DNA of 23,667 bases, taken from the IMG/VR virus record IMGVR_UViG_3300046004_002055, positions 1-23,667 of that record. One strand, 5' to 3'. Positions 1,088 through 15,711 of the stretch are shown here, piece by piece. The stretch's first letter is position 1, and each line of letters starts with the position of its first letter. This DNA is from a virus. The translations under genes were made by a program, and so were the position numbers. The notes below the pieces were generated by a model. It had not been told where the DNA came from. It ran no database searches and worked only from the letters and a program-made list of their open reading frames with translations.

Positions 1088-1147
1088 AAGTCCTAAAGTT
1101 TCCACTTAACAGAAATTTAATATCGTAACTTTTTACTATCTTGCAAG

Positions 1148-1164
1148 TATAATTGCTATATTTA
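1148..1164 (+). promoter_or_regulatory. Putative promoter with an element shared with the capsid operon
   Basis: TATAATTGCTATAT at 1148-1161 runs into TATATTTA (1157-1164), a near match to the TAnnTTTG -7 box, 18 bases before the ATG at 1175. The 14-mer recurs exactly at 12894-12907, upstream of the scaffold and capsid genes. Both copies have TTG a few bases upstream (1141-1143 and 12889-12891). Confidence 0.5.
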
Positions 1165-1174
1165 TTTTAAGAAA

Positions 1175-1510
1175 ATGAAGAAAATCATCATACCTATCTA
1201 TCAAAGAGTGCTTTTTGTCCACATTGGAGTACCCTCTGAACGTACATCCAAGAAACATAACCTAAGTATTAACCCCACAGACATAGCTTGCGTACATGAA
1301 ACTGATGATGGAATATTCGTATGGTTTTCGTCTACAGAGTTTAAAGCTTCCATAGCTACACATGAATCAGTACATATCAAAAACCTTGTATTTGACCAGA
1401 TAGCAGCTAAACCAGACTTTGAAAATGATGAGCATGAAGCTTATTTTGTAGAATGGATTGTAGAGACAATAGAAAAAGTTTACAAAAAACATACTAGCTC
1501 AAAGCAGTAA
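1175..1510 (+). CDS. Zincin-like phage protein (HExxH motif)
   Basis: Protein of 111 residues. HESVH at residues 63-67 matches the HExxH zinc-binding signature of gluzincin-type metallopeptidases. About 18 residues on, NDEHEAYFVEW (84-94) offers the acidic third ligand (E86 or E88) followed by an Ala-Tyr helix. This resembles the small phage zincin-like proteins with the layout HExxH then DExxAY. The N-terminal 60 residues are beta-rich. No signal peptide or membrane segment is seen, so it should act inside the infected cell. Its substrate is unknown; it could be an inactive zinc-binding fold. It begins the rightward unit after the divergence point, has its own promoter, and its last 17 bases overlap a convergent minus-strand gene. 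Confidence 0.75.
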   Translation: MKKIIIPIYQRVLFVHIGVPSERTSKKHNLSINPTDIACVHETDDGIFVWFSSTEFKASIATHESVHIKNLVFDQIAAKPDFENDEHEAYFVEWIVETIEKVYKKHTSSKQ

Positions 1511-2969: not shown

Positions 2970-4535
2970 ATGAGCAAAATAATAGAATTTCACACAAGAT
3001 CCCTTCAGAAAGGTGCTAACATTTTAGCAAATGCTGTAAAAGGTACTCTTGGGCCACAAGGAAGGAATGTAATCCTCTCACGTCAATTTAATCCACCACA
3101 CATAACTAAAGATGGTGTTAGTGTAGCAGCTTCAATAAAGCTTGAAGATCCAAATGAAGGACTAGGAGCACAGTTATTCCAAGAGATAGCTAACAAAACA
3201 TTGGAAGTAGCAGGTGATGGTACAACTTCTTCTATAGTTTTAGCTCAACACATTCTTAATGAAGGACTTCTTCTTATTTCGCAAGGAGTAAATCCTGTAA
3301 AACTGAAGAAAGGTATAGAGCTTGCAACAGCAGATGCAATACTTTCTATAAGAGCTCAATCTTTACTACTACAAAAAGACTCAATTCTAAATGTAGCTAC
3401 TATTTCAGCTAACAATGATTATGAAATAGGTAAACTAATAGCTGATGCTGTAAATCTAGTAGGAGAAGAAGGTCTAATTACTGTAGAAGAATCTCGTTCT
3501 ACTGAAACATACATAGAAGTTACAGAAGGTCTTAAGATAGAAAAAGGCTACATATCTCCTTATTTTGTTACTGATCCAAACAAGATGGTAGTAGAATACC
3601 AGGATGCTCTTATTTTAATTACAGACGAGAAAATAACCCAAACTACACAAATTCTAAAATACTTAGAAGCTTGTGTAAAAGAGCAAAGAGCTCTTATTAT
3701 TATTTGTGAAGATTTAGTAGATGAAGCTCTTTCTACACTTGTAGTAAACAGAATGAAAGGTATCAAAGTAGCAGCTATCAAAGCTCCTGCACATGGTGAC
3801 CATAAGAAAGAACTACTACAAGACATAGCTACCATAACAGGTGGTTTATATATTACTCAAGATAAAGGCTTATCTTTAGAATCTTCTCAATTATCTGCTT
3901 TAGGACAATCAGACATAAAAATCTTTAAAGACTCTACTACCTTAATTAATGGTAAAGGCAAAAAAGAAGACATCTTGATAAGAGTAAATCAAATAAAGGA
4001 ACAAGCCAAACACGTAGAACTACAGTTTGACCAAGACAGACTTACCAAAAGAGCACAAAAACTTTCAGGAGGAGCAGCTGTATTATATGTAGGAGCAACT
4101 ACAGAAACAGCCCTGAAAGAAAAAGCTGATAGAATTGATGATGCACTTTGTGCAACAAAAGCTGCAATAGCTGAAGGTATAGTACCAGGAGGAGGAACAG
4201 CATTTATAAAAGCAATATCTTCTATCTCTTCAAATAAAGACAAAGACATACAAGCAGGTATAGACTTAATAAAGAAAGCATTAGAAGCACCCTTAAGACA
4301 AATATTATCTAATGCAGGCTTAGAAGAAGATCCTATAATCTCAAAAGTAAAAAAAGGCAAGCAGTTTAATGCCAAATCTGAACAATACGAAAATCTCTTA
4401 GAAACAGGAGTAATAGACCCAACAAAAGTAGTAAGAGTAGCCTTGGAAAACGCATCATCAGTATGTGCACTATTCCTAACTACATCTTGTGTAGTAGCAG
4501 AAAAATATGTAGAAACCCCAATGAATTTTAATTAA
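2970..4535 (+). CDS. groEL: Phage-encoded chaperonin GroEL (Hsp60)
   Basis: Protein of 521 residues, against 548 in E. coli. GroEL assembles into rings that refold proteins using ATP. Nucleotide-site motifs are intact: GTLGPQGRN (25-33), ITKDGVSVA (45-53, D48), AGDGTTSS (81-88, D83), PGGGTA (406-411), and the catalytic Asp equivalent to D398 in RIDDALCAT (D391). Apical residues that bind clients and GroES also appear kept: Y-Y-F in GYISPYF (193-199), ILKYLEA, and ALSTLVVN. The C-terminal Gly-Gly-Met tail is missing; the chain ends VAEKYVETPMNFN. The upstream TTG at 2949 is not the start because it overlaps the -7 box. Seven bases separate the gene from groES. Placement beside terminase and capsid genes shows it is phage-borne. 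It probably folds capsid, tail or polymerase proteins. Confidence 0.95.
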   Translation: MSKIIEFHTRSLQKGANILANAVKGTLGPQGRNVILSRQFNPPHITKDGVSVAASIKLEDPNEGLGAQLFQEIANKTLEVAGDGTTSSIVLAQHILNEGLLLISQGVNPVKLKKGIELATADAILSIRAQSLLLQKDSILNVATISANNDYEIGKLIADAVNLVGEEGLITVEESRSTETYIEVTEGLKIEKGYISPYFVTDPNKMVVEYQDALILITDEKITQTTQILKYLEACVKEQRALIIICEDLVDEALSTLVVNRMKGIKVAAIKAPAHGDHKKELLQDIATITGGLYITQDKGLSLESSQLSALGQSDIKIFKDSTTLINGKGKKEDILIRVNQIKEQAKHVELQFDQDRLTKRAQKLSGGAAVLYVGATTETALKEKADRIDDALCATKAAIAEGIVPGGGTAFIKAISSISSNKDKDIQAGIDLIKKALEAPLRQILSNAGLEEDPIISKVKKGKQFNAKSEQYENLLETGVIDPTKVVRVALENASSVCALFLTTSCVVAEKYVETPMNFN

Positions 4536-4542
4536 TATATAT

Positions 4543-4818
4543 ATGAAAGCACCAAACTTAACACCAGTACCTCTTGGAGAAAGAGTAATTATAGAACCAA
4601 TAGTGGAAAAGCAAGAATCAGAGTTATTCTTAGCTGAAAGTAAAATGCCACCTGCAACACAAGGCATAGTAAAAGCTGTATCAGAACAGGTAACTACCTT
4701 AAAAGTAGGAGATGTAGTACAGTTTAGCCCTAATACAGGAGTACCTTTACTTATGGTAGATAATGCATACTTGCTTATGCGGGTAGGAGATGTAATTTGT
4801 AAATTTGTTGAACTATGA
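4543..4818 (+). CDS. groES: Phage-encoded co-chaperonin GroES
   Basis: Protein of 91 residues, against 97 in E. coli. It has the GroES plan: PLGERVIIEPI (10-20) for the usual PLxDRVxxK strand; a mobile loop (about 22-38) with LFL (28-30) in place of the IVL tripeptide that docks on GroEL; TQGIVKAV for the usual TxGxVxAVG; KVGDVVQF (54-61); and a C-terminal strand VGDVICKFVE. It caps the GroEL ring and closes the folding chamber. It lies 7 bases after groEL, and its stop overlaps the next start by 4 bases (ATGA), so the genes are co-transcribed and probably translationally coupled. The altered loop and shortened roof region suggest a pair matched to the phage GroEL or its clients. Confidence 0.92.
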   Translation: MKAPNLTPVPLGERVIIEPIVEKQESELFLAESKMPPATQGIVKAVSEQVTTLKVGDVVQFSPNTGVPLLMVDNAYLLMRVGDVICKFVEL

Positions 4819-5161: not shown

Positions 5162-5461
5162 ATGAACATGAATTTTGGACAAGCAATTGAAGCAATGAAA
5201 GAAGGCTCTAAAGTATATAGAGCAGGTTGGAATGGTAAAAATATGTATTTATGGCTACTACCAGCAACAGAAGTAAAAAAAGAATGGATTAAAGACCCAA
5301 TGCTACTTTCAGTTTTTGGAGATAGAGATACGTTACCTTGTTTAGGGAGTATCGGAATGTTAACAGCAACAGGTGAAGTACTTACAGGTTGGTTAGCATC
5401 TCAATCTGATATGTTAGCAGAAGATTGGCATGCCTTTAAGGAGTTTAAGAAAATATCTTAG
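5162..5461 (+). CDS. DUF2829 protein, Tad2-like (Thoeris anti-defence 2) candidate
   Basis: Protein of 99 residues with the DUF2829 pattern: NFGQAIEAMKEGSKVYRAGWNGK (residues 4-26 region), an aromatic strand MYLWLLP (28-34), a variable loop, and the hallmark WLASQSDMLAEDW (77-89). DUF2829 includes Tad2, a phage protein that binds and sequesters the cyclic ADP-ribose-type signal of Thoeris defence (1''-3' gcADPR), blocking activation of the effector. That role is inferred from family membership; many DUF2829 members are untested. Either ATG at 5162 or 5168 could be the start; the second gives the typical MNFG beginning. It is the last gene before a strong terminator, at the end of the chaperonin operon. 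Confidence 0.8.
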   Translation: MNMNFGQAIEAMKEGSKVYRAGWNGKNMYLWLLPATEVKKEWIKDPMLLSVFGDRDTLPCLGSIGMLTATGEVLTGWLASQSDMLAEDWHAFKEFKKIS

Positions 5462-5478
5462 AAGAGTTAAAAACAATT

Positions 5479-5507
5479 AGAGCTATCATAAAAAGGTAGC
5501 TCTTTTT
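5479..5507 (+). terminator. Terminator of the groEL-groES-Tad2-like operon
   Basis: AGAGCTATC (5479-5487) pairs with GGTAGCTCT (5495-5503) with one G-U pair around an A-rich 7-base loop, followed by a run of T to 5507. It lies 18 bases after the stop of the DUF2829 gene. Confidence 0.85.
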
Positions 5508-5536
5508 GCTTATGCAACTAATTAAAAACTATTTCG

Positions 5537-5548: not shown

Positions 5549-5731
5549 ATGACAATGCCAAGAGTTTTCTCTATAGAATGTGAATCAGTAACAGGACTTA
5601 TCAAAGCTACGCTTAACGTAGAAAAGATATTCCAAACCTGTATGCTTGAAGGTGAACATTACTTAACAGAAACTTTTAGCCTTGAAGATAAACACTTTTT
5701 AGTTGTTACTGTATGGAACTCAGAGGAATAA
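5549..5731 (+). CDS. Small hypothetical protein, first gene of the packaging unit
   Basis: Protein of 60 residues (MTMPRVFSIECESVTG...VVTVWNSEE). It is predicted to be mostly beta strands with two Cys. The start could be the second ATG (5555), which gives a slightly longer leader from the -7 box. It overlaps the next gene by 19 bases. No family is recognised; it is accepted because of its position between a terminator-promoter region and a tightly overlapping gene chain on the same strand. Confidence 0.55.
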   Translation: MTMPRVFSIECESVTGLIKATLNVEKIFQTCMLEGEHYLTETFSLEDKHFLVVTVWNSEE

Positions 5732-10074: not shown

Positions 10075-12525
10075 ATGTTAGGACAAGTAAAATTACTCCC
10101 AGACCAGATGGTGTCTGATGAAAAGAAGGCTACTAAAGAATGGCAGAAGAATAACATGGATGCTTTTGAAAACATCATTATGTTTGAGAATCGTCAATTA
10201 CGCCCAACTCTTTATAATAAGTTCAACAACTATAATCTAAAAAGAGGAGTAATAAACCAAGCAGATTTTGAGAAGATACTAGACCCACATGGGCTAGGAT
10301 TAAATTCTTTTCCTGCAAGGCTAGAACACATGGGCTTTGGTAATGCCAAAATAGACCTATTAGTAGGTGAGCACATGAACCGTAGGTTTGATTGGAGAGT
10401 TACCTTAAGTAATAATGATGCTGAAGGTATCTCAGGAAAAGAACAAAGAATGATGGGTAGGGTAAAGCAAGAACTTGTAGATATGTTACAAGGTAACCTA
10501 CCTGAAGAAGAAGCTCAAGCAAGATTACAAAGGCTTTCTGATTACATGAACTATGAATGGCAAGATGTAGCAGAGTCAGGAGCTCAAAAGATATTAAAGT
10601 ATTATTACAAACAACAAGATTTAGATACAATATTTAACAGGGCATTTGAAGATGCGCTGATTGCAGGTGAACAGATAGTATTTACAGAAGCATTAGGTAA
10701 AGAACTTTTCATAAGAAAAGGAGACCCAACAAAAATCTTTACCATAATGTCAGCTGAATCCATTGATGAATCAGGACTTGAGGCACTAGTAGAGGTAAGT
10801 TACCAAACAGTATCAAATGTATTAGACAATTTCCACGCCTACTTAGATACAGAAGCCATTGCTAAACTACAAGCCTTTAAAGGTATCTCGCCTTTTGGTG
10901 GTACATCTGGTTGGACTTACCCTACTTATGGCCCTGTAGGTGAATTAGCTATACCTGATAATTCTATTACAGCTTCAGGTATATTCCCTGTATCTGAATT
11001 AGAAAGAACACTATTTGCAACTAACATAGATGTAAATGGTAACATGCGTGTTGTACATTGCTTGTGGAAATCAAAAAGAAAAGTAAAACTACTTAAGTCT
11101 TTCAACGAAGAAACAGGACTGGAAGAAGAAAAGTATGTACACCAAAAGTACAAACCTAATAAACTAGTAGGTGAAGAGATAGTAAAAGAAATGTGGGTAA
11201 ATGAATGGTGGAGAGGTTTTAAGATTGGCTACGATATATACGTAAAGATAGAACCTGTACCATTCCTTTCTACATCTTTAGATAATATCTCACGTCAAGA
11301 ACCACCTGTTACTATACAGATATATAATACAAATACTTCAAAGGCACAAAGTCTTATGGATATTTGTAAACCTTTTGATTATATGTTAGATGTACTCTAT
11401 TTCAAGAAGAAACATTTAACTTCCTTAATGTTACCTGACATGTTGGTATTTCCTACTTCAATGATGCCTGATAACATGAATCTTGAAGAGTTTATCAATT
11501 ACATGCAGACTACTGCTACCATACCTCTTGACCCTACTGCTGAAATAGACAATGGAGCATTGGCAGGTAAAGCAGCAGGACAAATAAACAATACAGTAGG
11601 AGCTAACATCATTTCAGCAGCTCAGAATGGCCCACTTTCAGTTATAGGTAATCTTATAGATACCACACTACAAAGTATGGATCAAGTAACTGGTATAACT
11701 CAACAAAGACAAGGCGCCATACAGAATAGAGAATTAGTAGGTAACGTAGAAAGATCTGTAACACAGTCATCTCATATAACTGAAAAATGGTTTAGGTTAA
11801 ATGATAAGTTTAAATTACGTACTTTACGTAAAGTAATGAATATCTCTATACAACAATTCAAGGAGAACCCCAAGAAGTTTCAGTATATCCTAGACGACTT
11901 AACTACATTAGTTTTAACTGATGAAGAACTTACAGCTATACAAGCTTCAGAATTTGACTTACATGTAACTAATTCTTCTAACGATGCAGTAATAATGCAG
12001 AAAATTGAAGGCTTATTCCAAGTTGCAATGCAAAATGGTACAGCTACTCTTTCTGATGTATTGGAGATTTACCAAAATGAATCTATATCTAATGCAACTG
12101 CCAAACTTAAGTTACGTGAGAAACAACGTGAAGAGAAAGCAGCTGAAGCACAAAAACAAGAACAACAGATAAGACAACAATTAGAGCAGTCTGCACAAGA
12201 AATAGAAGATAGAAAAGTAAGGTTAGAAGCAGCTAAGTTAGAATTAGAAAGATATAAGATAGATACAGACAGAGAAACTAAACTGGAAGTAGCTCAACTA
12301 CAAGCTCAATCATTTGATCCTGAGAAAGATTACAATAATAACAATGAGCCTGACTATCTTGAAATGCGTAAACTAGATTTGGAACAACAGAAAATAGAAT
12401 TACAACGTCAGTCTGAAGCCATAAGAGTTTCCTTAGAACAACTCAAAGAGAAAAATAAAAAAGAGATAGCTCAACAAAAGCTAGAAGTAGATAAAATAAA
12501 AGCAAGAAAAAGTGGAAGTAAATAA
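10075..12525 (+). CDS. Portal protein, crAss-like
   Basis: Protein of 816 residues, starting directly after the terminase stop. The portal dodecamer sits at one capsid vertex and is the channel for DNA. Features in order: an alpha/beta N-terminal domain; a wing and clip region with many aromatic residues (EMWVNEWWRGFKIGYD); helical stem segments around ISAAQNGPLSVIGNL and QMDQVTG-like helices; and a roughly 145-residue C-terminal coiled coil very rich in Gln, Glu and Lys. In that tail DPEKDYNNNNEPDYLE resembles a calcium-loop motif seen in portals of Bacteroidota phages. Size, position after terL and this tail agree with crAss-like portals. Its last 14 bases overlap the next gene. Confidence 0.85.
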   Translation: MLGQVKLLPDQMVSDEKKATKEWQKNNMDAFENIIMFENRQLRPTLYNKFNNYNLKRGVINQADFEKILDPHGLGLNSFPARLEHMGFGNAKIDLLVGEHMNRRFDWRVTLSNNDAEGISGKEQRMMGRVKQELVDMLQGNLPEEEAQARLQRLSDYMNYEWQDVAESGAQKILKYYYKQQDLDTIFNRAFEDALIAGEQIVFTEALGKELFIRKGDPTKIFTIMSAESIDESGLEALVEVSYQTVSNVLDNFHAYLDTEAIAKLQAFKGISPFGGTSGWTYPTYGPVGELAIPDNSITASGIFPVSELERTLFATNIDVNGNMRVVHCLWKSKRKVKLLKSFNEETGLEEEKYVHQKYKPNKLVGEEIVKEMWVNEWWRGFKIGYDIYVKIEPVPFLSTSLDNISRQEPPVTIQIYNTNTSKAQSLMDICKPFDYMLDVLYFKKKHLTSLMLPDMLVFPTSMMPDNMNLEEFINYMQTTATIPLDPTAEIDNGALAGKAAGQINNTVGANIISAAQNGPLSVIGNLIDTTLQSMDQVTGITQQRQGAIQNRELVGNVERSVTQSSHITEKWFRLNDKFKLRTLRKVMNISIQQFKENPKKFQYILDDLTTLVLTDEELTAIQASEFDLHVTNSSNDAVIMQKIEGLFQVAMQNGTATLSDVLEIYQNESISNATAKLKLREKQREEKAAEAQKQEQQIRQQLEQSAQEIEDRKVRLEAAKLELERYKIDTDRETKLEVAQLQAQSFDPEKDYNNNNEPDYLEMRKLDLEQQKIELQRQSEAIRVSLEQLKEKNKKEIAQQKLEVDKIKARKSGSK

Positions 12526-12874
12526 ATTTATTGGAAGGTTATTCCATGCACGAGATACAGCACATCTATATCATTTATCATTAGAAGGCCCAGGAGCTTA
12601 TGCAGCACATGTGGCAGCAGCAGATTTCTATGATAAACTCTTAGATTTTACTGATACCCTTATAGAGTCTTATCAAGGTAAGAATGGGTTACTGTCTTTA
12701 ACCATACAAGCTTCTTACACAGAAGTAAGCAAAGATTTTCCTACTTATCTTAAAGCACTACTAACTTATATTGAAACAGAATGTCCCTTCACAGACTCTG
12801 ATGAACTCAATATTATAGACGAAATTAAGACTCTTACAAAACAAACCTTATATAAATTAACGTACTTAAGGTAG
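12512..12874 (+). CDS. Small helical phage protein, DUF5856-like
   Basis: Protein of 120 residues starting at a GTG; no in-frame ATG exists near the start, and the conserved region begins at once (VNKFIGRLFHARDTAHLYHL). This beginning, with DFYDKLLDFTDTLIESYQGK (38-57), resembles the phage family DUF5856, recalled without a search. These are ferritin/Dps-like all-helical proteins of unknown role, often encoded beside portal genes. The chain has four predicted helices and conserved His residues (12, 18, 21) that could bind metal. It overlaps the portal gene by 14 bases and is the last gene before the promoter region at 12889-12960. Confidence 0.6.
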   Translation: MEVNKFIGRLFHARDTAHLYHLSLEGPGAYAAHVAAADFYDKLLDFTDTLIESYQGKNGLLSLTIQASYTEVSKDFPTYLKALLTYIETECPFTDSDELNIIDEIKTLTKQTLYKLTYLR

Positions 12875-12888
12875 TTTTTATATACAAC

Positions 12889-12960
12889 TTGTATATAATT
12901 GCTATATATGCCTATATTTTTAATTTTAATTAGTGCAACAAATAGCTAATATTTGTACGT
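12889..12960 (+). promoter_or_regulatory. Promoter region of the scaffold and capsid genes
   Basis: The intergenic region 12875-12976 has TTG (12889-12891), 21 bases, then TATATTTT (12913-12920). Between them is TATAATTGCTATAT (12894-12907), identical to 1148-1161. Further on, TAATATTTG runs into ATTTGTACGT (12951-12960), which is identical to the minus-strand motif at 1087-1078 and 16 bases before the ATG at 12977. At least two start sites are therefore possible. Confidence 0.5.
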
Positions 12961-12976
12961 TTAAAACACATATTTT

Positions 12977-14113
12977 ATGGAAATAGAAAATTTAGAAGTT
13001 ATTCCTTTTGACCAGATTGGTAAAGAACCAGAACCTAAAAAGGAAAAAACAACAGAAGAAAAAGAACCTAAAACTGAAGTAACTTCAGATGATGGTCTTA
13101 TTTCTTTTGATGACATAGTAAAAGTTTCAGAAGAAGGACCTAAAACAGAGCCTACTAAAGCTGCTGAAAGTAATGATGTATTGTCAACTACTCTTAAAGC
13201 TCTTTACGAAAAAGAAGGATTAGAATTTAATCCTGAAGATTTTGACGGTACAATAGAAAGCTACCTTTCTTTGCAAGAAGATCTATCAGATAGGAAAGCA
13301 CAGGTAAAACTAGACTCACACATACAGAATAATCTTAACCCTCTTAATAAGAAGTTCATTGAGTTAGTTGATAATGGTGTATCAGTTGAAGATGCAGCTG
13401 ATTTGATGAAATCACTAAAGACTATCTCACAAATCAATAAAGATGATATTTCATCTGACTTAGAATTGGCTGAAAAGATTCAAAAAGAATACTTGCGTAA
13501 TACTACTAATTTCTCTCCTGAAAAGATAGAGAAAGAAATTAGGAAGTCTAAAGAAGCAGGTGTTTTAATGGAAGAGGCTGAAGCTAACTATGATGAGTTA
13601 GTTCAAGTAGTTATAAACTATGAGGCTGAGCTAAAAGAGAATGTAGTAAGACAATCACATGCTCAACAAGCTCAGGCACAAAAACAACTACAAGACTTAC
13701 AAGACTTTATTGAGTCTACAGAAGAAATTGGTGGAATAAAGTTATCAAAGAAACTTAAAGAATCTTGGACTAAAGAATATCAAACAGTTGAAGCTAATGG
13801 TCAAAAAGTAAATCCAATATTTGCTACCCGCCAAAAAGATGAAGCTAAGTTTGATGCTCTTTTACGTTTCTACCATACCATTGGTTTATTTAAATATGAT
13901 GCTCGTAAAAAGGATTTTATTCCTGATTTAAGTGTGCTAAAGAACGTAGGTAAAGCAGACGTAATAAAAGAACTGGAAGCAGCTATTTCTAGCAGCAACC
14001 AAAAAGGTATAAACAAATCATTTGCAACTACCTCTACAGATACTATGGAACAGGTAATAAATGATGGCTATGCCAAATTAGCAGAAGCAGTAAAAAACAA
14101 AAAAATAAAATAA
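12977..14113 (+). CDS. Putative scaffolding protein
   Basis: Protein of 378 residues directly upstream of the major capsid gene (23-base gap), the usual place for a scaffold. Residues 1-65 are very rich in Glu, Lys, Pro and Thr and likely disordered. The rest is almost entirely helical with coiled-coil character (such as AELKENVVRQSHAQQAQAQ). The C-terminus is basic (AEAVKNKKIK), as expected for contact with the capsid protein. It would guide procapsid assembly and then leave. Two short SFDDI/PFDQI segments repeat in the acidic N-terminus (about residues 10-14 and 43-47) and could be docking motifs. The assignment rests on position and composition. Confidence 0.65.
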   Translation: MEIENLEVIPFDQIGKEPEPKKEKTTEEKEPKTEVTSDDGLISFDDIVKVSEEGPKTEPTKAAESNDVLSTTLKALYEKEGLEFNPEDFDGTIESYLSLQEDLSDRKAQVKLDSHIQNNLNPLNKKFIELVDNGVSVEDAADLMKSLKTISQINKDDISSDLELAEKIQKEYLRNTTNFSPEKIEKEIRKSKEAGVLMEEAEANYDELVQVVINYEAELKENVVRQSHAQQAQAQKQLQDLQDFIESTEEIGGIKLSKKLKESWTKEYQTVEANGQKVNPIFATRQKDEAKFDALLRFYHTIGLFKYDARKKDFIPDLSVLKNVGKADVIKELEAAISSSNQKGINKSFATTSTDTMEQVINDGYAKLAEAVKNKKIK

Positions 14114-14136: not shown

Positions 14137-15660
14137 ATGATTGAAAATTTTGGAACCCTCTCAAAACTAGGCCCTAAAAGTTACATTGGGCCTTTGAAAG
14201 TACCTCACTTAGGTGAACTAGGTGAGAAATTCGGCTACGATGTAGAAAAAATGGTCTATCGCAGATTGTTTCAATATCTACCTTCGGACGACTATATCGC
14301 ATTTATGCGTGAATTTCCTGTACATGCCTTGGCTACTAGCAACGATCAGTATTTCTGGCGTCTTGGTGGTACTAACCAAAAGGTAGTAACTCTATTAGAT
14401 TGGTCTGACTTAGCAGGTGCTAAACCTTCTAAAGTAGGTCAAAATGGTGCTCAATGGTATATGTACTTTGCTGAGCCACTATTTAAAATTGGTGATGTAG
14501 TTCTTGGTGATAATCCTTTGGATTACAACATCATGGTTAAAGACTTCACTGAAGTTTCTAAAGACAAATATGAGTACCGTGTTGAACTAATCAACCAAGG
14601 TTCTCCTCTTATGTCTGTACCTGATTCAGAATTAACTGTAGGTTCAAACTGGTCTAAAGGCTGGCAATTGTCTCCTAACGAGCGTTCTTATCAAGGTACT
14701 GACTTCTACATGAATACCTTTGTTGAGCTTAAAGCTCCTACTTCATTGCACCGTATGCAATACAAAGTAGATGGTAACATGATTGAGCAAAACAAACCTA
14801 TGCCTTTTGGTATGGTGTTTAAAGATGATGCAGGTGCTAAAATTTCTGTAGGTGCTTATGTAAACTACTTTGATGCTCTTGCTATCCATCAGTTTGAAAT
14901 GCAAGCTGCCCGTGCTTTCATTCTTTCTCAAAAGAACTATGATAGCTCTGATATGGTTTATAACATTGACGATAAAAACAAATGTGTTATTAAATCATTC
15001 CCAGGTTTCTTCAAACAAATTGCTGCAACAAACACTATTCCTCAAAACTCTATTAACTTAGACCAAATAGTTGACATTGCACAAGACTTGAACCTTGCTT
15101 ACAAATATGATGACCAATTGTACCTAGTTATTGAAACAGGTTACTATGGTTACCAAGAAGCATCTAAATGGTTAGAAAACCGTTCAACTACTTACACTCC
15201 TAACTGGACTTTACATCGCATTCAAGAGAATGGTGATATGGGTGGCCAAGGTTTAACTTACCAAGGTGTATTTACCCGTTTCCGTTCTTACAATGGTGTA
15301 AACATTGAAGTTAAAATGCGTAAGTTCTTTGATGATCCTGAATTGTGGAAACAACGTGACCCATCTAACTTAGGTTTAGTAGCTTCACGTCACATGTTAA
15401 TTCGTTCAGGCGTTAAAGCTGACAGCCAATTCTTAGGTGATAGTGGTATTAAACGTCTATCTGTGAAAGCTTACGAAGATGGTATCTTCCGTTACATTCC
15501 AGGTATGCGTAACCCATTCTCTCCAGGTGGTACAGGTTGGGCAGGTAAATCTTCTACAGTATCTCCTGAAGATGCTTACGAAGTACATGGTATGATGTAC
15601 AATGGTTGTGTTATTGAAGACCCAACTAAAGTATTATTCTTGCCACGTAACGTAGCTTAA
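14137..15660 (+). CDS. Major capsid protein, crAss-like
   Basis: Protein of 507 residues. The N-terminus (MIENFGTLSKLGPKSYIGP, then LKVPHLGELGEKFGYDVEK) and the following FQYLPSDDYIAFMREFPVHAL resemble major capsid proteins of crAss-like phages (HK97 fold). Codon use differs sharply from the neighbours: Arg is almost always CGT, while terminase and groEL use mainly AGA, which indicates very high expression. It builds the icosahedral head; no N-terminal delta domain or protease gene is evident beside it. It is preceded by a typical A-rich Bacteroidota translation start (AAACAAATAATTTAAA) and followed by a strong terminator hairpin. Confidence 0.85.
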   Translation: MIENFGTLSKLGPKSYIGPLKVPHLGELGEKFGYDVEKMVYRRLFQYLPSDDYIAFMREFPVHALATSNDQYFWRLGGTNQKVVTLLDWSDLAGAKPSKVGQNGAQWYMYFAEPLFKIGDVVLGDNPLDYNIMVKDFTEVSKDKYEYRVELINQGSPLMSVPDSELTVGSNWSKGWQLSPNERSYQGTDFYMNTFVELKAPTSLHRMQYKVDGNMIEQNKPMPFGMVFKDDAGAKISVGAYVNYFDALAIHQFEMQAARAFILSQKNYDSSDMVYNIDDKNKCVIKSFPGFFKQIAATNTIPQNSINLDQIVDIAQDLNLAYKYDDQLYLVIETGYYGYQEASKWLENRSTTYTPNWTLHRIQENGDMGGQGLTYQGVFTRFRSYNGVNIEVKMRKFFDDPELWKQRDPSNLGLVASRHMLIRSGVKADSQFLGDSGIKRLSVKAYEDGIFRYIPGMRNPFSPGGTGWAGKSSTVSPEDAYEVHGMMYNGCVIEDPTKVLFLPRNVA

Positions 15661-15672
15661 ATTTAATTAAAT

Positions 15673-15711
15673 TTTTGGGGCTAGTATAAAAATCGTATAT
15701 TAGCCCCAAAA
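15673..15711 (+). terminator. Terminator after the capsid gene, overlapping a promoter-like element
   Basis: TTTTGGGGCTA (15673-15683) pairs perfectly with TAGCCCCAAAA (15701-15711) around a 17-base AT-rich loop, followed by TTATTTTTA. It lies 12 bases after the capsid stop and 8 bases before the next ATG. In the same segment TTG (15675-15677), an 18-base spacer and TATATTAG (15696-15703) form a plausible Bacteroidota promoter for the next operon. Confidence 0.75.

Follow-up and report, generated by a model that had tools for sequence, protein, structure and literature searches.

A conserved 17-bp site upstream of the scaffold and capsid genes of a crAss-like phage as a candidate activator site

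A 17-bp sequence, TATATAATTGCTATATA (positions 12892-12908, + strand), precedes the probable scaffold gene in the DNA analyzed here, the whole of a viral record of 23,667 bases (hereafter the window). The deep conservation of this motif, which is retained at the same place in 20 of 21 loci collected by capsid-protein similarity, supports its assignment as a functional cis element. Since the motif is conserved in a sister lineage and stands at a fixed distance from a predicted promoter, the sequences suggest that a protein bound to it turns on capsid production. The activator model as a whole, in which the motif is the upstream protein-binding site of a dedicated scaffold-capsid promoter, is in our judgement moderately probable.

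Genome organization and the capsid unit

The window was assigned to the Crassvirales (crAss-like phages): its TerL, portal and major capsid protein (MCP) are of the crAss-like type and are encoded in a syntenic order, and a match to the crAss ring protein (PF25710) is also present. Among the matches listed, identity to named crAss-like phages amounts to 31-35% for TerL and 23.5-24.9% for MCP. Two long relatives, G1 (96,431 bases) and G2 (94,185 bases), share aligned segments with the window that are 73-100% identical, with about 90% identity over the longest segment, and several fragments are equally close. Within G1 the genes form two arms, which diverge between positions 51084 and 51326. The gap preceding the zincin-like ORF of the window (1175-1510, + strand; label taken from the earlier note; phrog_1365, unknown function) corresponds to this divergence point, so that the rightward, structural arm opens with this ORF. 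Bearing on the question of the host, a pattern search for the capsid in one genome each from 84,980 prokaryote species revealed no relative.

The 17-mer lies downstream of a DUF5856 gene (12512-12874, + strand; phrog_858). The gene that follows it (12977-14113, + strand) has no family match and was labelled as the probable scaffold gene by its position before the MCP gene (14137-15660, + strand; phrog_11589, E 1.9e-33). Behind the capsid gene there is a terminator-like hairpin of 16 pairs with a T-rich tail (15673-15711, + strand; z -6.25), and a hairpin occupies the same place in the sister locus L266 (z -6.90). With this hairpin at their end, the scaffold and capsid genes look like a single unit with its own start and stop.

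The shared 14-mer and conservation of the scaffold-side site

It had been claimed earlier that an exact 14-mer, TATAATTGCTATAT, is common to two distant intergenic gaps of the window. Both copies are indeed exact and located on the + strand, at 1148-1161 and 12894-12907, the second being contained in the 17-mer. No third match is found in the window at up to 2 mismatches; since 32 of 100 whole-window shuffles give at least two matches at 2 mismatches, this looser test is uninformative. The argument that the match is unlikely to be due to chance held only in part. Over the whole window, the repetition of 14-mers is at an ordinary level (6 observed, shuffle mean 5.16) and cannot reject chance. 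Restricted to the 12 non-coding gaps of at least 14 bases (1459 bases in total, by our own gene list), the test rejects it weakly: TATAATTGCTATAT is the sole 14-mer common to two gaps, and any such sharing arose in 30 of 1000 gap-by-gap dinucleotide shuffles (3%). Judged on the window alone, the two-gap match is therefore suggestive, not compelling. A further upstream resemblance between the two gaps, "GTAnnTTTTT", was noticed by eye and discarded, as 9 of 24 bases match, which is about the level of chance.

Other elements of the earlier description fared unevenly. The TTG said to stand just before each copy is present in the window (1141-1143 and 12889-12891), but on the scaffold side three of four aligned relatives have TTA. 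TATATTT boxes, described as related to the motif, occur at 2944, 5537 and 12913, but the one placed at 15696 reads TATATTA and falls within the hairpin at 15673-15711. That the boxes belong with the motif is not supported, given that the groEL box is part of an ordinary Bacteroidota-type promoter and that at 15696 is part of the hairpin. The box at 12913 was considered as the -7 box of the scaffold gene and rejected; G1, G2 and L004 have TATAATTT instead, and nothing corresponds to it in the alignment of the sister lineage. The proposed check, whether the motif is equally common inside genes, gave a divided answer in G1: of the four matches at up to 1 mismatch, two are in gaps that precede genes and the other two fall within genes. 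At up to 2 mismatches G1 and G2 hold 8 matches each, versus 3 and 1 for the reversed pattern.

Viral contigs were scanned for the exact 14-mer, the resulting counts being lower bounds. Among the matches listed, 13 of the 107 scored lie in a gap less than 100 bp from a downstream ORF in sense orientation, a placement found for 4.7% of 2360 composition-matched controls; these 13 include four from the window clade or its sister lineage, three of which are mutually near-identical. A parallel scan with TTGCAAGTATAATTGC gave 40 stretches, 4 of them known relatives, and all 35 scorable matches among the other 36 lie inside ORFs; this sequence was rejected. The sister lineage was first met in the 14-mer scan, in which, among the matches listed, three contigs carry the motif before a scaffold gene whose product is about 38-43% identical to that of the window.

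The scaffold-side copy is exact in G1, G2, L005/L140 and L004, although these relatives alone tell little, because the whole scaffold gap is well conserved among them. More informative are the 21 loci found by capsid-protein similarity alone, of which 4 belong to the window clade and 17 to the sister lineage (amino acid identity to the window of 52-55% for the capsid protein and 36-43% for the scaffold protein). In 20 of them the scaffold gene is preceded by the 17-bp consensus TATATAAWTGCTATATA, a quasi-palindrome of the form TATATA-N5-TATATA; the exception, L280, has only TATATAATTTTCATATA. The exact 17-mer is common to the gaps of the window and of L264 and L269, and in neither case did any of 1000 shuffled gap pairs reach a match of 17. 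In L272 and L276 the motif differs by one base, the longest exact match with the window gap is 9, and this length was reached by 395 and 487 of 1000 shuffles, respectively.

The exact 17-mer was found in 54 viral stretches, 23 of which encode head genes (20 contigs of the 21-locus set and three new ones, L065, L308 and L318). A scaffold gene follows the 17-mer in 22 of these 23; the remaining stretch, L307, ends before that point and has the correct upstream neighbour. The other 31 stretches have no match to the seven query proteins, and in 23 of them the 17-mer falls outside open frames of 100 codons, indicating that it occurs also in gaps of other phages. In distant crAss-like loci, the best matches have 3 mismatches, which speaks against an order-wide promoter class. 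The idea of a promoter class repeated in each genome finds no support in the 11 sister records searched, all of them fragments: 10 contain a single exact copy and the remaining one contains none, while G012 has one further match at 1 mismatch.

The copy at 1148-1161 (+ strand), 13 bp before the zincin-like ORF, is part of a conserved 20-bp block, TTGCAAGTATAATTGCTATA (1141-1160), which is identical in the window, G1, G2, L142 and L144. The protein proposed to bind the scaffold-side site may bind here as well, and it is plausible that the two window copies serve one purpose. A competing explanation, that the scaffold site is real and the zincin-side copy a chance match in an AT-rich gap, is a serious possibility, which we hold to be somewhat less than probable. 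It accords with the 3% of gap shuffles that share a 14-mer, and with the rank that this copy receives from a matrix derived solely from sister sites (two distinct sequences): 4th in the window, 4th in G1 and 5th in G2, behind matches situated inside genes. In addition, the sister records G009 and G010 extend past the start of the late arm and have no second copy within 1 mismatch. Against coincidence, the 20-bp block is identical in G1, G2, L142 and L144 despite flanks that differ between the window and G1/G2, and in the window, G1 and G2 the scaffold site is the only non-coding match that scores higher than the zincin-side copy.

Promoter anatomy and readings of the site

Alignment of the scaffold gaps revealed a second conserved block, composed of a TGYAAC element and a Bacteroidota-type -7 box, the latter starting about 30 bp before the ATG (27 to 33 bp in individual loci). 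The block begins 38 bp past the 17-mer in the window clade and 48 bp past it in the sister lineage. The window has GTGCAAC at 12933-12939 (+ strand), and L308 and 9 of 16 sister loci have the variant TTGCAAC. The probable -7 box of the window, TAATATTTG (12947-12955, + strand), resembles the consensus TAnnTTTG given for Bacteroidota in the accessible parts of PMC9723704 and PMC7366714, and a transcription start is predicted near 12960. Of 16 sister loci, 10 have an exact TAnnTTTG and the other 6 have TAATTTCG, with one mismatch; six window-clade loci have one extra base. The window, G1 and G2 each contain a single instance of the pattern TGYAAC-N5-9-TA-N2-3-TTTG. By itself, TTGCAA was rejected as a recognition word: there are 18 sites in the window, and those listed are mostly in genes.

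The distance between the 17-mer and TGYAAC is constant within each lineage: every one of the 16 sister loci that have the site shows 34 bp, and each of the 6 window-clade loci (including L308, found by the motif) shows 24 bp. In L318, likewise found by the motif, ATGAAAC stands at 34 and the box is one base off. This constancy spans a drifting spacer. Seven loci were compared over its first 30 bp: 22-23 of the 30 bases match between the two closer sister subgroups, but only 9-14 between those further apart. The window-clade spacing is shorter by 10 bp, approximately one helical turn; if the last base of the -7 box is taken as the end point, the shift is 9 bp, because the window-clade box TAATATTTG is one base longer. 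With only two spacings and one change, helical phasing is suggestive.

According to the accessible text of PMC9723704 and PMC7366714, promoters of the primary sigma factor of Bacteroidota combine the -7 element TAnnTTTG with a -33 element, TTG or TTTG. For contrast, 74 loci of distant crAss-like relatives were examined, which supplied 266 upstream regions (229 after removal of duplicates). TTG-N17-23-TAnnTTTG is present in 24 of the 266, where shuffles give 1.8 and the opposite strand gives 1. The spacing in the 20 deduplicated sites is exactly 20 in 15 and 19 in 3, and 17 of them end 20-31 bp before the ATG. For comparison, the sequence TTG-N19-TATATTTG (2922-2951, + strand), read by eye as the promoter of groEL in the window, is of this ordinary Bacteroidota sigma-A type. 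The scaffold promoter approaches this type in its probable TAnnTTTG-type -7 box about 30 bp before the ATG, but 23 of 24 promoters lack a TTG at N17-23 before the -7 position, the exception being L318, with a spacing of 22; in place of the TTG there are TGYAAC and the conserved site near -60. Given the TTG-bearing promoters of distant crAss-like loci, the TTG-less scaffold promoter is unlike the ordinary kind.

A distance that stays fixed while the spacer drifts, the change by about one turn, the quasi-palindrome near -60 and the missing -33 element together give the region the look of an activator-dependent promoter. Of the features looked for in an activator-dependent late promoter, the conserved upstream site, the fixed distance and the absence of the core upstream element were found. 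The promoter would consist of three parts at fixed distances: TATATAAWTGCTATATA (about -68 to -52 in the window), TGYAAC (about -27 to -21) and the -7 box. A dimeric activator, probably encoded by the phage, would bind 12892-12908 and recruit the host RNA polymerase. The capsid unit, ending in the terminator-like hairpin, would in this way be switched on late.

The earlier note had proposed a phage-specific promoter or activator site. An activator fits best, and the idea that the 14-mer is itself the promoter is not supported, as a second block with a -7 box lies downstream. The alternative that the motif is a core promoter, either with TATAATTG as a -7 box (TA-N3-TTG) or as a promoter for a phage RNA polymerase, as the earlier note had it, we consider unlikely. 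Its appeal is that TATAATTG is one base from TAnnTTTG, that the motif of the zincin gap lies 13 bp before an ATG, and that the only other -7-like box of that gap, TATATTTA at 1157, overlaps the motif and is lost in G1, G2, L142 and L144. It is opposed by 7 of 16 sister sites that read TATAAATG, which destroys the TTG, by the fixed distance to the downstream block, and by a 17-mer that ends 69-82 bp before the scaffold ATG, compared with the 20-31 bp of most distant sigma-A sites. Moreover, TATAATTG is not enriched in the 266 distant crAss-like upstream regions (3, versus 3.5 in shuffles), on which ground an order-wide promoter class was also dismissed.

The quasi-palindrome would suit a dimeric repressor whose operator holds the capsid unit off until late, and copies at both the arm divergence point and the capsid unit would suit a common off-switch. 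We regard this as improbable: with its centre near -60, the site would lie clear of the polymerase, and the lack of a -33 element suggests a promoter in need of help, not restraint. Also improbable is an RNA element, acting as a hairpin or as a processing site within mRNA that reads through from the portal operon. In its favour, L276, in which arms of 10 bp flank the centre, is more stably folded than its shuffles (z -3.39), and the TATATA arms can pair in other loci; yet folding is no better than in shuffles for the window (z -0.68), L270 (z -1.01) or the zincin-side copy (z -0.06), and a fixed spacing to a DNA promoter element would be unexpected. As the core arms are invariant, they offer no covariation to count for RNA pairing. 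A repressor, an RNA element and a core promoter at the motif are each less likely than the activator model.

In its most specific form, the activator model holds that a phage-encoded dimeric activator near -60, helically phased, replaced the host -33 element and also binds the start of the late arm in the window clade, a combination that we put forward tentatively and think rather unlikely in full. If it were true, the 17-mer would be the recognition word of a late master switch new to the Crassvirales, within the literature that could be searched.

The first late gene of the sister lineage was inspected by eye in L281 (G009), upstream of 10120, and before the first long rightward gene in L282 (G010), L284 (G008) and L283 (G011); the sequences of G008 and G010 are identical there. 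Each record has a -7 box, TAGATTTG or TAGCTTTG, with TATTCTATAT 15 bp before it. TATTCTATAT stands where the -33 element would be expected and resembles the second half of the 17-mer, and it may represent another activator site.

Candidate factors, related systems and other features

No candidate binding protein could be tied to the 17-mer. A phage sigma factor, as in late promoters of the T4 gp55 type, was looked for: neither Sigma70_r2 nor Sigma70_r4 was found over the cut-off in four records, in which a divergent factor or an incomplete record could hide such a domain, and a weak Sigma70 match in G009 (E 0.022) is below it. Matches resembling the C-terminal helix-turn-helix of DnaA were identified over the cut-off in L337 (G008:3154-3339) and just under it in L338 (G002:30992-31114) and L339 (G001:32460-32582), with none in G009. 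These proteins, present in both lineages, are possible DNA-binding regulators, and for the 17-mer they are a lead only. Apart from the DnaA-like match, Pfam and PHROG scans of 80 G1 proteins (best 25 of 50 PHROG families) revealed no obvious regulator.

Activators of late transcription have been described in other phages. The late promoter A3 of phi29 is used by the host polymerase and has no -35 box; the activator p4 binds an inverted repeat well upstream, near -82. Late promoters controlled by P2 Ogr and P4 delta carry an activator site with dyad symmetry, centred near -55, and direct transcription of late structural genes by the host polymerase; the Ogr site, TGT-N12-ACA, is present at several late promoters. 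The scaffold promoter shares with A3 the upstream inverted-repeat site and the lack of a normal upstream core element and, as proposed, would also be used late by the host polymerase, but differs from A3 in sequence and distance. With the Ogr and delta promoters it shares a dyad upstream site before structural genes, but the Ogr site recurs at several late promoters, while here 10 of 11 sister records have one exact copy. As a kind, the activator-dependent late phage promoter is already known from phi29 and P2; the sequence, geometry and lineage appear to be new.

In the Crassvirales, the accessible parts of PMC8375218 and PMC10136315 assign early transcription to a virion RNA polymerase and late transcription probably to the host polymerase, and the former source adds that the phage polymerase may share in late transcription. 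The window resembles this programme in its divergent arms, with structural genes in one of them, and in capsid genes expected to be late. It differs in that those parts of PMC8375218 and PMC10136315 describe no phage promoter motif or activator. A search of the open-access literature found no description of a crAss-like promoter motif or late promoter. The passage from an injected RNA polymerase to late expression is little known in crAss-like phages. A conserved 17-bp site with fixed geometry provides a defined target, with predictions for an activator, for the place of a transcription start and for phasing by 10 bp.

Several features of the window lie beside this subject. The divergent gap (597-739) contains runs of 6-8 G at 597-603, 655-662 and 734-739 in an otherwise AT-rich genome, and ATCAAATATCCTATATAAACATGGGGGGTAT within this gap is common to the window, G1 and G2. 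Close to the start of the structural arm, the phage encodes a GroEL and GroES pair (2970-4818), and positions 2215-2916 encode a DUF559 domain together with an ExoX-like C-terminal domain; the interval between the zincin-like ORF and groEL has no called gene in G1. A protein with a Tad2-like domain (5162-5461; PF11195, E 1e-22) is a possible anti-Thoeris protein. Shortly upstream of the gene at 5549 there is a second terminator-like hairpin, followed by TTTTT, at 5479-5503 (z -2.90 for the stretch 5462-5520). Finally, the terminase of the named crAss-like phage cr125_1 (L145, 6926-8968) contains 11 in-frame stops under the standard code, all of which are read through with TAG as Gln; the terminase of the window differs in this respect.
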